Of a stretch of DNA of 64,000 nt, positions 8,261 through 61,463 are shown piece by piece. The first letter of the stretch is position 1. Every line of letters begins with the position of its first letter. A program made the translations under genes and the position numbers. Origin of the DNA: a virus. The notes below the pieces were generated by a model, which saw only the letters and a list, made by a program, of their open reading frames with translations, made no database searches and was not told where the DNA came from. Where the stretch lies: IMG/VR virus record IMGVR_UViG_3300043418_000120, positions 62,001 to 126,000 of that record; one strand, 5' to 3'.

Positions 8261-8920
8261 ATGAAATTGAGTAAAGAAACCCAAGAGATTTTTAAGAACT
8301 TCGCTCACATCAATGCGAATTTGATGTTGCGTACAGGTAATAAAATTTCTACTTGGACTGAGAACAAGACGATTATCGCAGATGTGACTCTGCCTGAAAC
8401 ATTCCCACAAGACTTTGGCATCTATGATGTTAACGAATTCTTGGGTGTATTGAGCTTGTTCAACGACCCAGAGTTGACCTTCAACAACGACGTAGTTGTT
8501 ATCAAGGAAGGTAAGAACCAAATCAAGTACAAGGCAGCTGAGGAATCTACTTTGAAGACTCCAACAAAATCAATCGTGTTCCCAGAAGCAGAAATCAATT
8601 TCTCTTTGACAGCTGGCGATCTTCAACACATCATCAAGTCTGCTGGTATCCTGAAAGTCAATGACGTTTCGTTCATCGGCGATGGCAATACTTTGACAGC
8701 TTTGGTTGTTGACAAGAAGAACCCATTGACAAACAAATTTGAAATTGATGTTGGTACTACCGATCGCACTTTCACTGCCAACATGAAGATTGAGAACTTC
8801 AAGATGTTGCCAGGAGCATACGATGTTTCTATCGCTCGTATGAAAATCTGTCGCTTTAAAGCAACAACAAGCTCGTTGGTTTACTACGTTGCGGTTGAGT
8901 CTGATTCTACATCAGAATAA
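8261..8920 (+). CDS. 45: Sliding clamp (T4 gp45-like)
   Basis: A 219-residue protein whose length and N terminus (MKLSKETQEIFKNF) match T4 gp45. It would form a trimeric ring on DNA that gives processivity to the polymerase encoded at 14809-17313 and, in T4, also activates late transcription. The order gp45, gp44, gp62, regA, gp43 is the classical T4 order, with small insertions. It has its own promoter and a strong AGGAG site. Confidence 0.92.
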   Translation: MKLSKETQEIFKNFAHINANLMLRTGNKISTWTENKTIIADVTLPETFPQDFGIYDVNEFLGVLSLFNDPELTFNNDVVVIKEGKNQIKYKAAEESTLKTPTKSIVFPEAEINFSLTAGDLQHIIKSAGILKVNDVSFIGDGNTLTALVVDKKNPLTNKFEIDVGTTDRTFTANMKIENFKMLPGAYDVSIARMKICRFKATTSSLVYYVAVESDSTSE

Positions 8921-8936: not shown

Positions 8937-9215
8937 ATGAAGACCGTGAAAGAACTCGACGGTCGGCTCTGGCGTGAGCCGATCCTCGATGTATGGAATA
9001 CAACTCTTTTTGGTAAACAGTTGAAGACTTTCGTTTGCAGAACTTGTAAAGAGAAAGCCTACGTGTCCGAAGCGTATAAGTGCTCAACACGCAAGAGTGG
9101 TTACCGTCCTTACCATGCTTCATGCTGGAATAAGTACAACGGCAAATCGTTCTCGCGTTTGTTTGAAACACCAAAAGAGCCAGAACCAGTGGCTACCCTT
9201 GATTATTTTATTTGA
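8937..9215 (+). CDS. Hypothetical protein with CxxC
   Basis: A 92-residue basic protein inserted between clamp and clamp-loader genes. It has a CRTC motif near residue 33 and two further cysteines (YKCSTRKSGYR, HASCWNKY), which could make a zinc site. It ends with an acidic proline segment and TLDYFI, a short hydrophobic tail that resembles clamp-interacting peptides; this last point is speculation. Confidence 0.7.
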   Translation: MKTVKELDGRLWREPILDVWNTTLFGKQLKTFVCRTCKEKAYVSEAYKCSTRKSGYRPYHASCWNKYNGKSFSRLFETPKEPEPVATLDYFI

Positions 9216-14808: not shown

Positions 14809-17313
14809 ATGGAATTTTACACAAACGTATTTCCACTTGGTAATAAGCTATGTGTGCGCGGTGTCAAGAATGGCATCCCATACATGGACAAGATCGACTT
14901 CAACCCAACATTATATGTTTCTTCGAAGACTAAGAATGCTGGCGAAGTTCATCACACATTGGATGGACAGGCTGTTTACGCAATTCAGCCAGGATCTATT
15001 CGAGAAACGAAAGATTTCCTTGAGCGTTATAAAGATGTTCAAGGTTTCAACGTATTTGGCAATACCAACTTTGCCTACCAATACATCTCTGACAACTATC
15101 AGTCTGAGATTAAGTATGACAAATCGCTAATCAAAATCACATCGATCGACATCGAAACTTCTACTGAAGAAGGCTTTCCCAATATTGAGACTGCCAATGA
15201 AGAAGTGCTTCTGATCAGTATGATGGATAATACTACTAAAGAGATTCATGTCTTTGGTAAGAGTCCATACACAGGTAACAAGGAAGTTATCTTTCACCAC
15301 TGCGAAAATGAAGCAGCCCTACTGTTGAATTTTATCGACTTCTGGAAAGAGAACTATCCTGATGTTGTTACTGGTTGGAACATTAACTTCTTCGATATTC
15401 CGTACTTGATTCGTCGAATCATGGTTGTTCTTGGTGATCAAGCTGCGAAACAGTTGTCGCCTTGGAATGTTCTCTATGAGCGTAAGATCAACTCGCGTGG
15501 TCGTGAAGAACTTTGTTATGATATCGCAGGTATCTCTGCGCTTGACTATCTTGACTTGTACAAGAAGTTCACATACACGATGCAAGAATCATATAAACTT
15601 GATCACATCGCCTTTGTTGAGCTTGGTGAGAACAAGCTAGACCACTCTGAGTACGAAACCTTCAAGGACTTCTATACTTACGGTTGGAAGAAGTTCGTTG
15701 ACTACAACATTCACGACACTAAGTTGGTTGACATGTTGGAAGATAAGATGAAGTTGGTTGAGTTGGCTATCGTTATGGCGTATACTGCTCGCGTAAACTA
15801 TGAGGACGTGTTCTCTCAAGTTCGTATGTGGGATACCATCATCTATAATCATTTGAGAGCCAAGGGAATTGTTATTCCTAACAAGACTCACAACGAGAAA
15901 GATGCTGTTATCGAAGGCGCATATGTTAAGGATCCGCTGGTTGGCATGCATGACTGGGTTGTGTCTTTCGACTTGAACAGTCTGTATCCTCACTTGATTA
16001 TGCAGTATAACATCTCACCAGAAACGATGGACGCTAACTACAAGCACATCGGTGGTGTAAACTATTTCCTTGAGCATGCTGAGACTGGTGGATATCACAA
16101 CCTGAACCTTTCTTGTACTGCCAACGGCTGGTGTTATACGAAAGAGCATAAGGGTTTCTTGCCTGAGTTGATGGAAAAGATGTACATCGATCGAAGCAAA
16201 GCCAAGAAGCAAATGTTGAAGATCCAGCAGGATTATGAGAACACCAAGGATAAGTCTCTGGTAAATGAGATCTCTCGCTTGAACAACCTTCAGATGGCTT
16301 TGAAGATTGCTTTGAACTCAGCTTATGGTGCGTTGGCCAACCAGTATTTCCGTTACTACGACAAGCGTATGTCTGAGGGCATCACGTTGTCTGGTCAGTT
16401 GTCTATTCGTTGGATTGCTAACAAGTTGAACGGATACTTCAACAAGATGCTCGGAACTGACAAGGATGACTTTGTTATTGCGGTTGATACTGACTCTGTG
16501 TACTTGCGCTTTGGTCCATTGATTGATAAGTTGTTCACGAAGGAAGACCAACTCGACAAAGATAAGATCGTCAAGTTCATCGATAAGATTTGCGAAGATA
16601 AGCTACAGCCATTCATTGATAAACAGTATCAAGAGTTGGCCGATCGTCAGAATGCCTTTGCTCAGAAGATGATCATGAAGCGCGAAGTTATTGCCGACCG
16701 TGGTATCTGGACTGCTAAGAAGCGTTACGTTTTGAACGTACACAACTCTGAGGGTGTTCAGTACGCTCAACCCAAGATGAAGATTATGGGTCTTGAGATG
16801 GTTAAGTCATCGACGCCTCTGGTTGTTCGTGACAAGTTGAAAGAGGCGATGAAGATTGTTATCAAGGGTGATCAACTTGCTCTGCGTAAGTTTATTACTG
16901 ACTACAAGACCGAGTTCTTCAAGCTGTCGATTCCTGAGATCGCATTCCCTCGTGGTGTCAACAACATGAAAGAATATGCTGACGCTGGTAAGGTATATCG
17001 TAAGTCAACGCCTATCCATGTTCGTGGTGCTTTGATGTACAACCATATGCTCAAGCAGAAACAACTCGAGAATAAGTATCAGCCTATCAACGAAGGCGAT
17101 CGTATCAAGTTTATCTACTTGCGCGAACCCAACACACTACACGAAGATGTGATTAGTTTCACAACTGAAATTCCAAAGGAATTTGATTTGGATAAATACG
17201 TTGATTACGAGAAACAATTCAACAAGGTTTTCTTGGATCCTCTGGCTGCTATCATGGGCGCAATCTCATGGACGATCGAGGACGAAGCGACTCTTGATGA
17301 CTTCTTCGCGTAA
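14809..17313 (+). CDS. 43: Family B DNA polymerase (T4 gp43-like)
   Basis: An 834-residue replicative polymerase, close to the T4 length of 898. Exonuclease motifs: Exo I SIDIET with D114 and E116, Exo II VVTGWNINFFD, Exo III YNIHDTKLVD. Polymerase motifs: A SFDLNSLYPH with D388, B KIALNSAYGALAN, C VDTDSVYL with D560 and D562. All catalytic residues are present. It ends DDFFA, a hydrophobic tail that in T4 gp43 binds the clamp. AAGGAG precedes the ATG. No intein or intron is visible. Confidence 0.96.
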   Translation: MEFYTNVFPLGNKLCVRGVKNGIPYMDKIDFNPTLYVSSKTKNAGEVHHTLDGQAVYAIQPGSIRETKDFLERYKDVQGFNVFGNTNFAYQYISDNYQSEIKYDKSLIKITSIDIETSTEEGFPNIETANEEVLLISMMDNTTKEIHVFGKSPYTGNKEVIFHHCENEAALLLNFIDFWKENYPDVVTGWNINFFDIPYLIRRIMVVLGDQAAKQLSPWNVLYERKINSRGREELCYDIAGISALDYLDLYKKFTYTMQESYKLDHIAFVELGENKLDHSEYETFKDFYTYGWKKFVDYNIHDTKLVDMLEDKMKLVELAIVMAYTARVNYEDVFSQVRMWDTIIYNHLRAKGIVIPNKTHNEKDAVIEGAYVKDPLVGMHDWVVSFDLNSLYPHLIMQYNISPETMDANYKHIGGVNYFLEHAETGGYHNLNLSCTANGWCYTKEHKGFLPELMEKMYIDRSKAKKQMLKIQQDYENTKDKSLVNEISRLNNLQMALKIALNSAYGALANQYFRYYDKRMSEGITLSGQLSIRWIANKLNGYFNKMLGTDKDDFVIAVDTDSVYLRFGPLIDKLFTKEDQLDKDKIVKFIDKICEDKLQPFIDKQYQELADRQNAFAQKMIMKREVIADRGIWTAKKRYVLNVHNSEGVQYAQPKMKIMGLEMVKSSTPLVVRDKLKEAMKIVIKGDQLALRKFITDYKTEFFKLSIPEIAFPRGVNNMKEYADAGKVYRKSTPIHVRGALMYNHMLKQKQLENKYQPINEGDRIKFIYLREPNTLHEDVISFTTEIPKEFDLDKYVDYEKQFNKVFLDPLAAIMGAISWTIEDEATLDDFFA

Positions 17314-17548: not shown

Positions 17549-18606
17549 GCTTTTTAAAAGATATTGTAAAAGAACTGGATAATGAATATGCGGGACTCGC
17601 TGATGATGGTGTGGTTGGTGATACTGATACTTTTATCGACACTGGTTCTTATACTCTCAATGCCCTGCTATCTGGCAGCATCTATGGTGGTTTACCTGGC
17701 AACAAAGTCACAGCTCTGGCTGGTGAGTCGTCGACTGGTAAAACCTTCTATGCTCTGGGTATTGCGAACAATTTTCTCCGCACTGATCCAAAGGCTGGAA
17801 TCATTTACTTCGAAACCGAAGGTGCCCTGAACCGCGAAATGCTCGAAGAGCGTGGTATCGATACCAAGCGTTTCATGATTGTGCCAGTTTCGACAGTACA
17901 GGAATTCCGTACTCAAGCTACTAAGGTTCTTGATTCGTACGAGAAGACTCCTAAGAAAGATCGACCACCATTGATGTTCTTCTTGGACTCATTGGGTATG
18001 TTGTCAACTTCAAAAGAAATGGAAGACATCGCTGAAGGTAAAGACACTCGCGATATGACACGTTCTCAATTGATTCGTGGCGCATTCCGTGTGTTGTCAT
18101 TGAAGTTGTCTAAACTTGATGTCGCGATGGTTGTTACAAACCATACCTACGCTGTCATCGGTTCTTACATGCCATCCCGTACTATGGGTGGTGGTGATGG
18201 TTTGAAGTACGCAGCTTCTTCGATTGTGTTCTTGTCTAAGTCTCAAGACAAAGACGGTACTGAAGTTGTTGGTAACATCATCAAGTGTAAGGTTGAGAAG
18301 TCTCGTTTCACTCGCGAGAAGTCAATGGTTGAAACGAAGCTGTCGTTCACCAAAGGTTTGGATCGTTACCATGGCTTGACCGATCTGGCTGTTGAAGCTG
18401 GTATCTGGAAGGCGCAAGGTGGACGTATCGAAGTTCATGATGGACGTAAGGTGTTCGGTAAGGCTATCGCTCAACGCCCAACAGAATTTTTTACCAAGGA
18501 AATCCTAGATAAACTTGACACATACTGTAAATCCAAGTATAATTATGGTAGCGACGAATCTGTTGTTACTGATAATGATATTGAGGATGAAGTAGATGCG
18601 AATTGA
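17545..18606 (+). CDS. uvsX: UvsX recombinase
   Basis: A 353-residue RecA-fold protein with Walker A GESSTGKT (residues 60-67), a Walker B-like LMFFLDSLG, and the MGGGDGLKYAASSIVFL core strand. It forms filaments on single-stranded DNA and drives strand exchange for recombination-dependent replication, helped in T4 by UvsY, which is not in the window. A promoter lies inside its 3' end, and its last 11 bp overlap the helicase gene. Confidence 0.94.
   Translation: MSFLKDIVKELDNEYAGLADDGVVGDTDTFIDTGSYTLNALLSGSIYGGLPGNKVTALAGESSTGKTFYALGIANNFLRTDPKAGIIYFETEGALNREMLEERGIDTKRFMIVPVSTVQEFRTQATKVLDSYEKTPKKDRPPLMFFLDSLGMLSTSKEMEDIAEGKDTRDMTRSQLIRGAFRVLSLKLSKLDVAMVVTNHTYAVIGSYMPSRTMGGGDGLKYAASSIVFLSKSQDKDGTEVVGNIIKCKVEKSRFTREKSMVETKLSFTKGLDRYHGLTDLAVEAGIWKAQGGRIEVHDGRKVFGKAIAQRPTEFFTKEILDKLDTYCKSKYNYGSDESVVTDNDIEDEVDAN
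18515..18543 (+). promoter_or_regulatory. Internal sigma70-type promoter within uvsX
   Basis: TTGACA and TATAAT with a 17-bp spacer lie inside the coding sequence of uvsX, about 50 bp before the helicase start. They could give extra helicase transcript independent of uvsX. Confidence 0.7.
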
Positions 18607-19990
18607 AGACCAAATCTTTGGCAACTTAATTAGTCACGAGGAGTACGCAAGAAAGGTTATGCCTTTCTTGTCCCCTGACTATTTTACAGATAGAACCGAC
18701 CGAGTTATCTTTGAAGAACTTGCTCGGTTCTTCACCAAATACAATGCTGCTCCTGCGAAGGACGTTTTGAAGATCGAGGTAGCAAACCGCACCGATGTGA
18801 CTGAAGACCAAGTCAAGGCTGCGAACAATATCCTCGACTCTGTTCAAGCAGAGAAGACTAACATTGACTGGATTACAGATTCGACTGAGAAATTCTGTAA
18901 AGACAAGGCTGTTTACAATGCTATCATTAACTCCATCCGAATCATCGATGGTAAAGACAAGAATCATAATGCTGACGCTATTCCTGACCTTCTGTCTAAA
19001 GCTCTCGCTGTCACTTTTGATTCTCATGTTGGCCATGATTACTTGGAAGATTCTGACTCTCGCTATGACTTCTATCATCGCGTTGAAGAAAAGATTCCTT
19101 TCGACTTGGATATGCTCAACAAAATCACCAACGGTGGTCTGAGTAAGAAAACCCTCAACGTAATTCTAGCTGGTACTGGTGTTGGTAAGTCGCTGGCGAT
19201 GTGTCACTTCGCAGCTGCTAACTTGATGCGCAGTAAGAACGTTCTCTACATTACCATGGAAATGGCTGAAGAGCGTATCGCTGAACGTATTGATGCGAAC
19301 TTGCTAGAATTGTCTATGGATTCTTTGAAGATGGTTGAGAAACGTGTCTTTGATTCACGCCTTGACAAACTTCGCAAGAAAGATCCAGGCAAGTTGATTG
19401 TTAAAGAATATCCAACTGCCTCTGCGCATTCTGGTCACTTCAGAGCGTTGATTGAAGAACTGAAGATGAAACGTAACTTTATCCCTGATATCATCTACAT
19501 TGACTACTTGAACATCTGTTCTAGCCAACGTATGAAGATGGGTGGCTCTGTAAACTCTTATACATATATTAAAGCAATCGCAGAAGAACTGCGTGGCTTG
19601 GCAGGTGAGTACAAGGTGCCAATTGTTACGGCTACTCAAACGACTCGAGGTGGTTTCGCAAACAGCGACCCAGGATTGGAAGATACTTCTGAATCGTTTG
19701 GTTTGCCAGCGACAGCTGACTTGATGCTTGCGTTGATTAGCACAGAAGAACTTGAACAAATGAACCAGATTATGGTGAAGCAGTTGAAGAACCGTTACTC
19801 TGACCCGAACTTCTATAAGAGATTCGTAGTTGGTGTTGACCGTAAACAAATGAGACTTTATGATGTTGAAATGAGCGCGCAAGCCAATATCTCTGATCAA
19901 GGTGAGATTGACGACGATGTTCCCGTTTTCGACAGAGGCAACTTCGGCAAAAGAATCAAGACTGAGGGATTCAAAGGATTTAAGGCATAA
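18596..19990 (+). CDS. 41: Replicative DnaB-type helicase (T4 gp41-like)
   Basis: A 464-residue hexameric helicase. An N-terminal helical domain (to about residue 150) precedes a RecA-like core with Walker A AGTGVGKS (192-199), Walker B region DIIYIDYLN and a later TATQTTRGG sensor. It unwinds the fork and works with primase gp61 (36745-37764). The ATG is preceded by GAGGATGAAG inside uvsX. Confidence 0.94.
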   Translation: MRIEDQIFGNLISHEEYARKVMPFLSPDYFTDRTDRVIFEELARFFTKYNAAPAKDVLKIEVANRTDVTEDQVKAANNILDSVQAEKTNIDWITDSTEKFCKDKAVYNAIINSIRIIDGKDKNHNADAIPDLLSKALAVTFDSHVGHDYLEDSDSRYDFYHRVEEKIPFDLDMLNKITNGGLSKKTLNVILAGTGVGKSLAMCHFAAANLMRSKNVLYITMEMAEERIAERIDANLLELSMDSLKMVEKRVFDSRLDKLRKKDPGKLIVKEYPTASAHSGHFRALIEELKMKRNFIPDIIYIDYLNICSSQRMKMGGSVNSYTYIKAIAEELRGLAGEYKVPIVTATQTTRGGFANSDPGLEDTSESFGLPATADLMLALISTEELEQMNQIMVKQLKNRYSDPNFYKRFVVGVDRKQMRLYDVEMSAQANISDQGEIDDDVPVFDRGNFGKRIKTEGFKGFKA

Positions 19991-20001: not shown

Positions 20002-21381
20002 ATGGTTAAAGTAATTGTAGCAGATAAAATTCATGATTCAGAACACTTGCTCGGCATGTTTGTCGACGAGTCGCACTACGATGTGTTAATTGAAGAAGAC
20101 ACAGATTGTTATCTACCAGCAGATTGTGACGCTGCTTCGCAGGCAAACTGTGAAACCGATCGCGACTGTTCTAATTGTTCGAAGGGTATGAACGAGGCGC
20201 GTATCGCCTTCAAATTCCGTAAGAACTTCTTCACCAAAGAAGAACAAGATAATGCATATGCTGGTCTGCGCGAAGCTGCTGTTCGTACCGAAAACCGTGG
20301 ACTTGCTTCTGGTATCAAAGAAGGTACATCCGTAACAGGCGAAGGTCGTGAGTGGGTTACCAACTATCAAGAAGAAATGATTCATGCGATCCTGAGTGCT
20401 CGTACTGAGTCCTTGATTGAAGGTGATGTGATTGAAGAAGTTCGTTCACGTTTCCCAACCCAAGCCGATCGTCTAAAGGCTTTGGGCTCTGGTAAGAACA
20501 ACGTATGGGTTATCTCGCGTTTCCGTAACAAGTTCAACTTCGACGAGTTCATCGACAGCATCATTCCTCTCGATCGCGAGAAGCGTGCTACTGAGATGGA
20601 AGAAGTCATGAAGATGATCAGTGAGACATCTTATGGCAACCCTGTTGACTCAGGTATCGCTGGTTGGTACGATCGTTATCCACGTATCCCTTATGGTCGT
20701 GCGACAACTTACACTCGTGACAACTTCGAGAAATTCCAGTTGGCTTACCCATTCCTTCAAACTCTTGCGAAGGGGTTTAAAGACTTGTTGCCATGGCGTT
20801 ACAACAACCAGATGGAAGCTGCTAAGAAACTTGACCCACGTTACCTTGTGCCTGGAACACCATTCACCACAATTACCGTGAACAAGACTTTCCGTACAGC
20901 TGCTCACCGTGATGCTGGTGACTTGGATTCTGGTTTGTCGAACTTGTTGACTCTATCTAACGATGGTCGTTACACAGGTGGCTACTTGATTTTCCCAGAG
21001 GTTCGCATTGCTGTTAATGTGCGTCCAGGCGACTTGCTGTTGGTTAACAACCACGAAGTTATCCACGGTAACACGCCAATCGTATGTGAGGAAGGTTCTG
21101 AGCGCATTTCTTTGGTATGTTATTTCCGTGAGAAAATGCTTGAGCTTGGCACTCACGAATATGAAGATGCTCGCTATCGTTACGTCGAATCTCGTCGTCT
21201 GAATAAAGAACACCCAATGTGGAAGAAACTCTGGAATGGTGTTTCTCCAGGCATGTGGGATGACGCTGAATGGTACGATTTCCTTCGTAAACAACCGAAC
21301 GGCGACGCAATGGTAGCAAAGTACCACCCTGACGCGAACAACGCCGACTTGGGCGACTTGGGAGATGAATGGTTCGCTTGA
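20002..21381 (+). CDS. TET/JBP-family 2OG-Fe(II) dioxygenase (base oxidation)
   Basis: A 459-residue protein. Residues about 285-375 form a TET/JBP double-stranded beta-helix: iron ligands H302-R-D304 (AAHRDAGD) and H355 (HEVIHGN), and a probable 2-oxoglutarate-binding R368 (SERISLVCYF). GGYLIFPEVRIAVNVRPGD is the family's typical strand pair. The N-terminal part has a Cys-rich insert (residues about 38-60, six Cys) that may bind zinc. Known phage members oxidise 5-methylcytosine in DNA to hydroxymethylcytosine, and JBP acts on thymine; which base is used here is open. A glycosyltransferase lies two genes downstream. Confidence 0.82.
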   Translation: MVKVIVADKIHDSEHLLGMFVDESHYDVLIEEDTDCYLPADCDAASQANCETDRDCSNCSKGMNEARIAFKFRKNFFTKEEQDNAYAGLREAAVRTENRGLASGIKEGTSVTGEGREWVTNYQEEMIHAILSARTESLIEGDVIEEVRSRFPTQADRLKALGSGKNNVWVISRFRNKFNFDEFIDSIIPLDREKRATEMEEVMKMISETSYGNPVDSGIAGWYDRYPRIPYGRATTYTRDNFEKFQLAYPFLQTLAKGFKDLLPWRYNNQMEAAKKLDPRYLVPGTPFTTITVNKTFRTAAHRDAGDLDSGLSNLLTLSNDGRYTGGYLIFPEVRIAVNVRPGDLLLVNNHEVIHGNTPIVCEEGSERISLVCYFREKMLELGTHEYEDARYRYVESRRLNKEHPMWKKLWNGVSPGMWDDAEWYDFLRKQPNGDAMVAKYHPDANNADLGDLGDEWFA

Positions 21382-21406
21382 CTTTTATCCTATAATCAGG
21401 TATAAT
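21378..21406 (+). promoter_or_regulatory. Sigma70-type promoter
   Basis: TTGACT and TATAAT with a 17-bp spacer, overlapping the stop codon of the TET/JBP gene. A second TATAAT lies 10 bp upstream. The leader of about 17 nt contains AAGGA before the ATG at 21430. Confidence 0.8.
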
Positions 21407-21429
21407 TGACTATATTTTAAGGAATCACA

Positions 21430-22290
21430 ATGCGATCGAATTATTGGTCATGTTCTAAATTTGCTGACTGGCTTCGTGGTACTGACAAGCCACCAGCAGC
21501 AACTTCGGAAGGCTGGCGCTCATGGCGCCTTGCCTCTAAGAAGACACACCCAATCCGTCATTGGATCGTTGAAGAAGGTCTTGACAATCTTCAACGATTC
21601 GTCTATTGGCCAGCTGACAAGTTGAACGACATTCGTTACTACATCAACAACCGTTGGGTGGCACGTTCGCATTCACTGACAGCACATCCTCGCGATATCA
21701 AGCCAGGATCTTGGTGCGATGTTGGTAACCGTTTCTTGCCTTGTATGTTCAATGAGTTGGTTGACTTTGTTGAAGTTGAATCAGCATGGATGCATGTTGT
21801 TTGGAACGACGAGAATCGCGACAAGTACAATGTTCCATTCTGGCGCAAGCAATGGTGGACACGTTGGGGAATGGTATGGCGTTGTAAGGAAGCTGGTCTT
21901 GATCATTTGAACTGGGCTGCTCAGTTGCGTTTCGATGATGAGTTCATTGAACAAGACAGCCCATCATACGGCAAGTTCACACCACAAGCCATAAATGCTC
22001 AGGAAATTCTAAGCCTTTACACTTGGTGGACTGAGAAGCGTCCAGCTCGTCCCGATCCATATGAAGTGTCAGGTTGGTCAGCATTGTGCGCTGAGCGTAG
22101 AGCTGCTCGTCGCGCCGAAACTGGCGACAGCAAGGATGACTTCTTTATCTCCGACGAGAAGACACCAGAAGCTAGACAGAAAACAACTGCTGCTCTAGAT
22201 GCGCTACATATGTTAGAGGCAGAATATGAAAAAGAAGACGAAGAAATGATGATTCGTCTAATCAAAGTACGACACGGTCTCTGGACTTAA
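21430..22290 (+). CDS. Conserved hypothetical protein in modification cluster
   Basis: A 286-residue Trp-rich protein without recognised catalytic motif. Its middle (IRYYINNRWVARSH, then PGSWCDVGNRFLPCMFNELVDFVEVE) is a pattern I recall from unassigned proteins of T4-like phages. The C-terminal third is charged and helical. It sits between the base-oxidising dioxygenase and the glycosyltransferase, which makes an accessory role in DNA modification possible but unproven. Confidence 0.75.
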   Translation: MRSNYWSCSKFADWLRGTDKPPAATSEGWRSWRLASKKTHPIRHWIVEEGLDNLQRFVYWPADKLNDIRYYINNRWVARSHSLTAHPRDIKPGSWCDVGNRFLPCMFNELVDFVEVESAWMHVVWNDENRDKYNVPFWRKQWWTRWGMVWRCKEAGLDHLNWAAQLRFDDEFIEQDSPSYGKFTPQAINAQEILSLYTWWTEKRPARPDPYEVSGWSALCAERRAARRAETGDSKDDFFISDEKTPEARQKTTAALDALHMLEAEYEKEDEEMMIRLIKVRHGLWT

Positions 22291-22302
22291 TAAAGGAAAA
22301 AC

Positions 22303-23652
22303 ATGAAGATTATGATGGTAATGCACACCTTCAACAATTTTGGAGGTATTATCAACCACTGTGAACATCTAGTCGCAGGGTTGAAAGAGCTTGGTCATGA
22401 GGTTACGTTCGCGTATCTGAAAGGCAACAAGACAGTTCGACCAGTTGAGATTCCAACTGAGTTGAAGGAAGGTTATGAGATTGGTGTTGGCACAGGTTAT
22501 CCTGTACACCAAGGCGATGGTTGGATCGCACCTTATTACTCATACAAAGTTCAAGAATCGATTGACAAATTTGTTGTAGATGCTAACCAACACGATTTGG
22601 TTATTTGGCAGTCTATCTTTGGCTTCAAGAATAAAGACACCGAGAAGTCTCTAATGTGGTTGCCGATGGTTGAGAAAATCACTGCCAAGCAAGTCCCAAT
22701 TATTCATGATGCTAACTTGAAGAAGCTGTACCCTTGGATCCAGTTGTTTGAGAAACACTTTGCTGGTCTGGCATGCGTTCACCCAGCAGCTTATGACTCA
22801 GCTGACTTTATGGATGTTCCACGTGCTCTGATTTTGAACCCACAGGACATTGCTAATATTCCCCAGCCACCCTTGTTTTCGAACCAAGAAAACAAGGTTT
22901 TGTCTATCCAGACATTCAAGCGTTGGAAACGTGTTGATGATTTGATTCGTGCTGTACCACACATGAAAGAGGTTAAGACTCTGGTTGGCGGTTATGGTAT
23001 TGAAGCAGCTTACATGATGTCCAAGGACAAATGTAAGGACGAGTACTACTGCACTTCGCAGTATGACCCAGATCGTACCCCAGAGATGGATGGTAAGCGT
23101 ATTTGGCAAAACGCCGAGGAATCAGGTAACTTTGAGTACCTTGGATTTATCTCAGGAGCAAAGCGTGATGAAATTCTATCAACATCTAAGTTTTTGGTTG
23201 ACCCCTCTTGGTCAAATACTTTCGGCGAGCATTTCAACCGTGTGGTTGTGGACGCTATGCGCATTGGTGTCGTACCAATTGCCATAAACTTTGGTGTCTC
23301 TGACAACGAAGAAGGTCAAGGCGTCGTTCTGAAGGCAGGTATCAACTACTGTATGATCAAGAAAGGCTCTACTCCAAAGCAGTATGCCGACAAGATTAAA
23401 GAGTTTTGTAACATGTCTCAGGCTGATTACCAACAAATGCAGCTAAATAACTATGAACTGATTAAACAGTTCGATCGAAAGGTAATTGCTCAGCATTACA
23501 TCGACTTGGCTATGGGTAAGGAGACAGGCTATCTGAACGAACTTAGAACCAAGACGAACCATGACCCAAATATCCCTAGAGTTGCGCGAAACATGTTTGA
23601 AGAACACTTCGAACAACCCAGCGCACAGTCTTTGGACGATTTCTTCGGGTGA
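22303..23652 (+). CDS. GT-B fold glycosyltransferase
   Basis: A 449-residue protein with the layout of GT4-type glycosyltransferases: a glycine turn in the N-terminal Rossmann domain (NNFGGIINHCEHLVAGL), and a C-terminal donor-binding domain with FKRWKRVDDLIRA, EYLGFISGAKRDEIL and GEHFNRVVVDAMRIGVVPI, where the first Glu of the E-x7-E-like motif binds the sugar nucleotide. The neighbouring TET/JBP enzyme would create hydroxymethyl bases, natural acceptors for DNA glycosylation. Alternative: modification of a surface glycan. Confidence 0.82.
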   Translation: MKIMMVMHTFNNFGGIINHCEHLVAGLKELGHEVTFAYLKGNKTVRPVEIPTELKEGYEIGVGTGYPVHQGDGWIAPYYSYKVQESIDKFVVDANQHDLVIWQSIFGFKNKDTEKSLMWLPMVEKITAKQVPIIHDANLKKLYPWIQLFEKHFAGLACVHPAAYDSADFMDVPRALILNPQDIANIPQPPLFSNQENKVLSIQTFKRWKRVDDLIRAVPHMKEVKTLVGGYGIEAAYMMSKDKCKDEYYCTSQYDPDRTPEMDGKRIWQNAEESGNFEYLGFISGAKRDEILSTSKFLVDPSWSNTFGEHFNRVVVDAMRIGVVPIAINFGVSDNEEGQGVVLKAGINYCMIKKGSTPKQYADKIKEFCNMSQADYQQMQLNNYELIKQFDRKVIAQHYIDLAMGKETGYLNELRTKTNHDPNIPRVARNMFEEHFEQPSAQSLDDFFG

Positions 23653-23688: not shown

Positions 23689-24342
23689 ATGAAAGCTGAT
23701 CTGATCCAAAACTACAAACACAACTTCGTGGATCTGCTGAATGTGGATCTACCGTCACTCGTCCCAGCTAAACTCTGGGACGACTTTGACAAGTATCGCG
23801 ACGACCCCAAGGGTATGAAGCGTTATCTTGCTCGTCAACATAAAACAAAACTAGAATTTGAATACGACCCAAGAGAATGCCGTGTCTCTGGGGAATTCGA
23901 CATTGAGACAGAACGTATCTCAATTTTCGCTACCATTTCTCGCCGTTGGGAAGACAGAGACTGGGACTACTTCAAGTTTGAGGTAATTGTCACCATGATG
24001 CATGAGTATATTCATTACATGCAGTGGTTGAAGAGTGGAGATGAGATGGATCTGGTGCTGTTCCACAAGGAAAGCAAGAACCCAGACAAACAAGAAGACC
24101 GCGAGTACTACGCTTGCTGGTCAGAGATCCAAGCCTATGGGCACTGTATCTACATGGAGATGAAGGCTAAGAATGCCAAGAAATCCTGTGCTGAGATGCT
24201 ACAATCCAAGAGACGAAGCTGGTACTCGCCATCATTACGTCAATTCAGAACTGCATTTGATGGTTTTGACTATCCTTTACGCTACCTGTACCGAGAGGTG
24301 CTCCGCTGGGAGAAACGCTACGAATCACTAAATATAGGATAA
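23689..24342 (+). CDS. HExxH metallopeptidase-like protein
   Basis: A 217-residue protein with H105-E-Y-I-H109 in a helix (VTMMHEYIHYMQW) and a plausible third zinc ligand E146 in YYACWSEIQAYGH, the geometry of gluzincin peptidases. No signal peptide is seen, so a cytoplasmic role is expected. The mRNA appears to be leaderless. It precedes the virion-associated block; a role in processing is possible but the substrate is unknown. Confidence 0.7.
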   Translation: MKADLIQNYKHNFVDLLNVDLPSLVPAKLWDDFDKYRDDPKGMKRYLARQHKTKLEFEYDPRECRVSGEFDIETERISIFATISRRWEDRDWDYFKFEVIVTMMHEYIHYMQWLKSGDEMDLVLFHKESKNPDKQEDREYYACWSEIQAYGHCIYMEMKAKNAKKSCAEMLQSKRRSWYSPSLRQFRTAFDGFDYPLRYLYREVLRWEKRYESLNIG

Positions 24343-60795: not shown

Positions 60796-61098
60796 ATGAA
60801 GAAGTTTCTAGTTTTACTGTTGGTTGGTTTGAGTTTTGCGGCTCAGGCTCAGCATTATCATGGTGATCATTTTCATCGCGGAGCCTACTACAACTGGGCT
60901 GCTCCAGCAATCATTGGTGGTGTTATTGGATACAGTATGGCTCAGCGCCCTACTACTGTAGTTGTCCAACAGCCACCAGTCTACGTTCAACAACAGCCAG
61001 TCTATGTTGATCGTCCAGGTATTCCTTACGGATACCGTTATGAGAATGTATTGGATGCGAACTGTGGCTGCTACCGAGTAGTCCTAGTTCCAAACTAA
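60796..61098 (+). CDS. Secreted small protein with Gln/Pro/Tyr-rich region
   Basis: A 100-residue protein with a Sec signal peptide (MKKFLVLLLVGLSFAAQA, cleavage after AQA), a His-rich start, a Gly/Ile helix (APAIIGGVIGYSMAQ) and a VQQPPVYVQQQ low-complexity region, ending CGCYRVVLVP. The form is common in bacterial envelope proteins. I prefer the ATG at 60796 (AGGAG) over 60778 because it gives a normal signal peptide. Confidence 0.72.
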   Translation: MKKFLVLLLVGLSFAAQAQHYHGDHFHRGAYYNWAAPAIIGGVIGYSMAQRPTTVVVQQPPVYVQQQPVYVDRPGIPYGYRYENVLDANCGCYRVVLVPN

Positions 61099-61104
61099 TT
61101 GTTG

Positions 61105-61404
61105 TAATCCCTTCAAAGCGAAGGACTTCTGGACGCGGGTTCGACTCCCGCCATCTCCACCACAAGCGCATTGGCGTAGTATGAGTACTCTAAAACTCGA
61201 CTGCGAAAATCTTAGTTCTAGTGTGCTTTTGATGGGGATGCCATGGTTTCGACAGGGGTAGATAGTAGAGACGGCAACACGGTAGGCGATGACCGTTAAT
61301 CAAGCAAATCAAAATAAATGCAAACGAAAGTTCATTTTTGATGGCAGCCTAATCGGCACCATCTGAGTTTCGGTGGGTGTACTTGGAAACAGAAACACCT
61401 ACCA
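61105..61404 (+). ncRNA. ssrA: Circularly permuted (two-piece) tmRNA
   Basis: The acceptor half comes first: GAAGGACTTCTGGACGCGG with a T arm (GCGGG 61135-61139, loop TTCGACT, CCCGC 61147-61151), the 3' acceptor strand CATCTCC (61152-61158) and ACCA. After a 71-nt intervening segment (61163-61233) comes the 5' half: GGGGATG (61234-61240), then GGTTTCGACAGGG, as in known tmRNAs. GGGGATG pairs with CATCTCC through 7 bp including the alanine identity G3-U70 wobble. The tag frame starts at GCA 61320 and reads ANESSFLMAA, stop at 61350-61352. A 9-bp helix (61372-61403) follows. Mature ends are inferred. Confidence 0.93.
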
Positions 61405-61405
61405 T

Positions 61406-61413
61406 TATAAATA
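61406..61413 (+). promoter_or_regulatory. T4-late-type promoter box TATAAATA
   Basis: A perfect TATAAATA box right after the tmRNA helix, about 50 bp before the ATG at 61464. It would allow late transcription of the following gene, the wall hydrolase and ClpP. Confidence 0.5.
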
Positions 61414-61463
61414 ATTACTTACATCATGAACACACAACTTGATTTACACACACAGGAGTTTAC

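Follow-up and report, generated by a model that had tools for sequence, protein, structure and literature searches.

The 64-kb stretch of DNA analyzed here (the window) is part of a 174-kb contig of a T4-like freshwater phage (IMG/VR record IMGVR_UViG_3300043418_000120) and probably encodes a two-enzyme, post-replicative, clamp-tethered DNA hypermodification system with swappable downstream modules. Its core consists of a TET/JBP-family Fe(II)/2-oxoglutarate (2OG) dioxygenase of 459 amino acids (TET; 20002–21381, + strand), predicted to hydroxylate the 5-methyl group of thymine on DNA, and a GT-B, GT4-like glycosyltransferase of 449 amino acids (GT; 22303–23652, +), predicted to glycosylate the 5-hydroxymethyl base. 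Together with an intervening open reading frame (ORF) for a Trp-rich protein of 286 amino acids they form three codirectional ORFs directly 3′ of the gp41 gene, separated by gaps of 48 and 12 bases. The original prediction, made from the sequence of the window, had placed these ORFs correctly, and its recognition of TET/JBP residues and of a GT-B enzyme two genes further downstream was borne out by Pfam, alignment, and fold comparisons. Its proposal that TET and GT hypermodify DNA is strongly supported by the swapping of GT with known DNA-modification enzymes at the same site and by clamp-type C-terminal tails common to these proteins.

In the proposed pathway, a pyrimidine of the phage DNA would be hydroxylated by TET at its 5-methyl group. 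As suggested by protein family, fold, and gene context, this step most likely converts thymine to 5-hydroxymethyluracil (5hmU). The GT-B enzyme would then move a sugar onto the new hydroxyl group, probably as a retaining enzyme that forms an alpha linkage. TET and GT would ride the gp45 sliding clamp via polymerase-type tails, DNA being modified during or just after copying, and the modified DNA would presumably be shielded from restriction. The hydroxyl supplied by TET would be a handle common to all modules, and what is attached to it would be set by the genes further downstream. A more specific version is offered tentatively, with slightly less than even prospects of being correct: a base-J-like phage pathway in which a clamp-docked TET and a clamp-docked GT4-type enzyme produce (alpha-)glycosyl-5-hydroxymethyluracil, with interchangeable sugar, amino acid, and perhaps inositol cassettes, several of them clamp-tailed.

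The dioxygenase and the glycosyltransferase

TET matched the Pfam family Tet_JBP (PF12851) with 91.2 bits (E = 5.6e-26; cut-off 34.9) and, over its full length, phrog_24024 (484 bits); phrog_6059 was a weak match. The Fe ligands H302 and D304 in the HRD motif (20905–20913, +) are invariant among 29 aligned homologs with identities down to 40%, as are the third Fe ligand H355 and the 2OG residue R368 (21064–21105, +). An AlphaFold model (pLDDT 82) had TET2, CcTet, NgTet1, and CMD1 as its best 26 fold matches in the PDB, with whole-chain TM values of 0.3–0.5. At least 466 relatives of TET were found in viral contigs. Residue D307 is invariant too and aligns with the position of TET2 N1387 and NgTet1 D234, the residue that contacts N4 of 5-methylcytosine (5mC); reading the base selectivity from this active site was rejected, as it does not discriminate between T and 5mC.

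The Cys-rich insert of TET (C42–C59; residues 42–62, 20125–20187, +), pointed out initially as an unusual addition, is real but not required. It is missing from about one third of the aligned homologs, so that a required zinc site was rejected and the insert is, judging by the alignment, dispensable. In the records KU682439, KF301602, and NC_023554, members of the TET family bear the label ‘SNF2 DNA repair protein’ and, in mycobacteriophages, probably ‘queuine tRNA-ribosyltransferase’; the present assignment corrects these labels for several genes in public records.

GT matched Glycos_transf_1 (PF00534) with 42.4 bits (cut-off 26.4), and the fold matches of its model (pTM 0.83) were retaining GT-B enzymes. 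They included the T4 alpha-glucosyltransferase (AGT) in complex with DNA (TMq 0.60), the remaining matches being generic GT-B enzymes. GT had no match up to an E value of 1 in the T4 AGT family PF11440 or in TAGT (PF20691), and a PDB sequence search yielded no family match. Since neither Pfam family matches, GT was not classed under PF11440 or PF20691. The model points to a GT4-like GT-B enzyme of the retaining type, a fold from which an alpha linkage would be expected.

GT was found at 53 places in viral contigs and is closely tied to TET. A TET gene lies within four genes upstream in 29 of the 30 distinct GTs that have at least 1.5 kb of upstream sequence, and for the thirtieth (L226; L-numbers denote the fetched loci of relatives) the original search list contains a TET match directly upstream. 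GT is located downstream of TET with zero to two genes in between, and GT identity is about 80% even where the TETs share only 38–40%.

Exchangeable modules and C-terminal tails

The contents of the slot behind TET were compared for 133 distinct TETs of phages; this slot is the region between the gp41–TET pair and MET217, a 217-amino acid HExxH-type ORF (HEYIH; 23689–24342, +) that has no Pfam family and is conserved beside GT-type and ADDT-type slots alike. The DnaB/gp41-type replicative helicase (18596–19990, +) is the conserved upstream neighbor of TET, and the pair stands adjacent in most fetched loci. The slot contained GT, a module with an amino-acid:DNA transferase (ADDT), an ADDT/inositol variant, the TET-associated glycosyltransferase TAGT, which is a known DNA glycosyltransferase, or a protein designated u335. 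The ADDT module comprises genes for GATase_6, a weak Amidoligase_2 match, GNAT, ADDT (PF18724; 86 bits in L044), and a P-loop kinase (PF18751). In L060 and L061 the slot contains ADDT, myo-inositol-1-phosphate synthase, a HAD-like ORF, and the kinase (L060:3667–7219), and a set of this type with ADDT (179 bits), inositol synthase, and kinase, plus a TAGT-like gene, occurs in the cultured Caulobacter phage Cr30 (L010:15027–20891). The gene content of these three loci suggests a possible inositol-linked base modification. TAGT itself occupies the slot in L239 (PF20691, 71.7 bits), where it is annotated as beta-glucosyl-HMC-alpha-glucosyltransferase, and lies three genes upstream of TET in phage DLP6.

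GT and ADDT occurred together in none of the fetched loci. ADDT was not found in the GT-bearing contigs tested, including the 174-kb contig, and is present in relatives without GT; the relatives' P-loop kinase has no homolog among the ORFs of the 174-kb contig. Mapped onto a tree of 118 TETs, which is a quick tree with long branches, the GT label requires 8 changes, at least 6 of them forced by well-supported branches, and all labels together require 13. A swap at the same site is seen between loci whose TETs are 90–91% identical, with the gene order TET-GT-u65 in L183 versus TET-u261-ADDT-kinase-u65 in L265. Moreover, L030 (9783–10127) and L207 (7660–8004) carry a 114-amino acid remnant between TET and GT in which the P-loop is lost; the copy in L030 resembles the kinase (45 bits), and the remnant reads as the relic of an amino-acid module that GT would have replaced. 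Since GT and the ADDT module exchange behind one TET, the simplest reading is that TET makes one product on which both act. Such an exchange of cassettes would show TET to be a common handle with swappable downstream chemistry, and it would predict the substrates of many unnamed phage enzymes.

Two further types of locus were observed. The 335-amino acid protein u335 (L222:9321–10328 and L262:9305–10761), which has no Pfam match and is sometimes followed by a 150-amino acid HAD-like ORF, is a candidate for a new decorating enzyme. In phage C48C1 (L011:13353–15385), TET is followed by a 344-amino acid protein without Pfam match and a UDP-galactopyranose mutase, a gene set suggestive of a possible galactofuranosyl modification.

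The second line of evidence is an acidic-hydrophobic C-terminus shared with the phage DNA polymerase. The gp43-type polymerase (834 amino acids; 14809–17313, +) ends in TLDDFFA (17290–17310, +) and GT in SLDDFFG (23629–23649, +), and homologs of TET end in SLEEFFG, SLDEFFA, or SLESFF. In T4, gp43, gp55, and gp33 bind gp45 via acidic-hydrophobic C-termini (PMC2988020), the motif being stated as LDFL (PMC9690074), and the T4 alpha-glucosyltransferase co-purifies with gp45 (PMC13216743). The divergent TETs of the L183 type end exactly in LDFL, and gp55 of the phage studied here carries SLEVFF in its tail. The TET tail is disordered in the model (pLDDT 43).

The motif was counted among distinct ORFs of at least 100 amino acids in the fetched loci; as the patterns were written after the first cases had been seen and the contigs are related, the counts are descriptive and do not correspond to p-values. 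It is present in all 80 DNA polymerases, in 128 of 136 TETs and 33 of 34 GTs, in the single TAGT (1/1), and in part of the GNAT (31/46) and ADDT (14/54) proteins. Families from the same genomes that served as internal control lacked it throughout (gp41, 0/106; Trp-rich protein, 0/79; MET217, 0/56; GATase, 0/69; kinase, 0/41), and it was found in 10 of 1,642 unassigned ORFs. These ten are a D12-class DNA adenine methyltransferase (L234:7110–7985, 114 bits, ending in SSNLDDFF), two copies of u261, u260 directly after TET, three HNH endonucleases, and three others. Because TET and GT have the same tail as the polymerase, both would ride the sliding clamp gp45 (8261–8920, +; Pfam gp45-slide_C and DNA_PPF), the proposed docking platform, which has homologs in DLP6 and Cr30. 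The motif thus suggests that the two enzymes dock on the clamp and that modification is coupled to the replisome, a possible mechanism for modifying a whole genome along with its replication. The tail may also serve as a simple sequence rule for DNA-modifying enzymes, as it picked out GNAT, TAGT, u261, and the DNA adenine methyltransferase.

A 92-amino acid ORF between the clamp and clamp-loader genes (8937–9215, +) has weak zinc-finger matches and ends in ATLDYFI, a clamp-type tail; it is possibly a gp33-like protein.

Target base, alternative readings, and known systems

The original prediction had reported neither a dCMP hydroxymethylase nor a DNA methyltransferase in the window and had concluded that either a methyltransferase lies elsewhere or thymine is the target. 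For a hydroxymethylase and a C5-methyltransferase, the absence extends to the whole 174-kb contig. The search of the rest of the genome for a C5-cytosine methyltransferase (PF00145), which it had proposed, found none in the contig or in 22 related records, including the complete genomes of Cr30, DLP6, and C48C1, and a control search was positive in 10 of 14 genomes. A thymidylate-synthase-like dUMP/dCMP hydroxymethylase (PF00303) was likewise not found in the contig or its IMG/VR relatives, a ThyA-type match occurring in Cr30 only. Of the two explanations, thymine is favored.

The partner genes that alternate with GT also point to thymine. Escherichia phage CBA120 has a protein homologous to ADDT, and in the DNA of CBA120/Vi01 about 40% of thymidine is replaced by 5-NeOmdU (PMC11721090). 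In Rhodococcus phage Tonitrus a TET-like gene adjoins aGPT-Pplase2 and a 5-hmU kinase (PMC11955845). Mycobacteriophage JAMaL carries consecutive genes for ParB, gene 2, ADDT, and a kinase-like protein, and gene 2 is labeled phrog_6059 in sister records. Because no C5-methyltransferase was found and the genes that replace GT are those of the thymidine pathway, thymine is, on the gene content of these phages, quite likely the target. Restriction resistance of DLP6 was considered as evidence and not used, since the digestion result is not clearly given (PMC5349666).

Several points weigh against the proposed system. The usual acceptors of GT4 enzymes are lipids, proteins, or small molecules, and every GT-B fold is somewhat like T4 AGT. 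The tail of the phage's own TET, LGDEWFA (21358–21378, +), is a divergent copy of the clamp-binding-like motif of the SLDEFFA type, and the tail and linkage counts, taken from related contigs, do not represent independent events. The contig is possibly incomplete, a nucleoside analysis was found for none of these phages, and a 5mC route would be available if the host methylates the DNA or if PF00145 fails to recognize a strongly divergent methyltransferase.

On that route, which we consider rather unlikely, a host or undetected methyltransferase would make 5mC, TET would oxidize it to 5-hydroxymethylcytosine (5hmC), and GT would glycosylate 5hmC. It draws on the named precedent of phage TET plus glycosyltransferase, a system that reportedly acts on 5mC (Burke and co-workers, 2021) and is echoed in the Pfam name of TAGT, as well as on the annotation of TAGT at the slot and on the alignment of D307 with the N4-contacting residue. 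However, the missing C5-methyltransferase speaks against it, T is also accepted by NgTet1-type enzymes, and the swap partners of GT (ADDT and P-loop kinase) belong to the thymidine pathway and have thymidine derivatives as known products. Still less probable is that the C-terminal motif is a general tail, for example a degradation or localization tag, and not a clamp-binding site. The motif is missing from the kinase, GATase, and amidoligase that belong to this pathway, but it fits the T4 class represented by gp43, gp55, gp33, and LDFL, recurs as LDFL in the divergent TETs and as SLEVFF in gp55 of this phage, and is nearly confined to DNA polymerase and DNA-modifying enzymes. That TET acts on RNA or protein, with GT an unrelated nearby gene for surface glycans or host takeover, is very improbable. 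GT4 enzymes commonly build glycans and phage neighbors can be unrelated, as illustrated by the Trp-rich ORF; yet GT stays with TET even across TETs of 40% identity, exchanges with DNA-directed modules, and shares the polymerase tail with TET, whose best 26 fold matches are DNA-base dioxygenases.

Phage TET systems and thymidine hypermodification are both already known. The proposed thymine-directed system resembles base J synthesis by JBP1/JBP2 and JGT, where a TET/JBP enzyme hydroxylates thymine in DNA and a separate glycosyltransferase adds a sugar (PMC6449724). In contrast to the beta linkage of base J, the retaining GT4-like GT-B enzyme would give an alpha linkage, and replisome tails are present; no J-binding domain was seen, although no search aimed at one was made. 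No assignment to base J, which would depend on linkage and sugar, was made. Glucosylated 5hmU was stated in 2019 to be unreported in phages (PMC6449724). Phage thymidine hypermodification (M6, ViI, CBA120, phi W-14, and Tonitrus) is linked to it by the ADDT and P-loop kinase that relatives carry in the GT slot, whereas this phage has GT in place of both; moreover, in M6, ViI, and phi W-14 5-hydroxymethyldeoxyuridine (5hmdU) is made at the nucleotide level before replication and here it would arise from TET acting on DNA. T4 AGT is, like the predicted GT, a retaining GT-B DNA glucosyltransferase, binds gp45 (PMC13216743), and was the fold match mentioned above, but its family PF11440 does not match GT, and its substrate 5hmC is formed from dCTP prior to replication. 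TAGT takes the very same slot behind TET in L239 and lies near TET in DLP6, but is not homologous to GT according to Pfam. The cyanophage 5-carboxymethylcytosine system (CmoA/CmoX/CmoY) also extends a modified-base handle by a separate enzyme (PMC12783734), but uses a C5-methyltransferase homolog, none of which was found in this phage. The literature searched, in which neither Iyer 2013 nor the primary papers of Lee and of Burke were included, contained no report of a GT4-type partner of TET, of an exchange with thymidine-pathway cassettes, or of modification enzymes with polymerase-type clamp tails.

Neighboring genes

The Trp-rich protein (21430–22290, +) had been listed in the original prediction as another unusual addition. 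It is indeed a genuine conserved protein, found at 180 places in viral contigs and without a known domain in Pfam and PHROG searches, but its distribution identifies it as an unrelated passenger outside the modification system. It occurs without TET or GT in 78 of the 106 matched loci, stands between TET and GT in one TET subclade only, and is missing from most TET loci. A role as modification enzyme was rejected, as the protein is mostly found away from TET, its neighbors elsewhere look unrelated (by eye, MazG-like, ThyX-like, ClpP-like, and others), and it lacks the clamp-type tail.

The window further encodes a clamp loader and UvsX besides the DNA polymerase, clamp, and gp41-type helicase. 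Among cultured phages, neither a nucleotide search with the cluster nor protein-level searches with GT and the Trp-rich protein gave a match. A phage-encoded tmRNA is located at 61038–61443 (+); it matched the permuted tmRNA family RF04321 (146 bits) and the betaproteobacterial tmRNA family RF01850 (140 bits), encodes the tag ANESSFLMAA, and by this match hints at a betaproteobacterial host.

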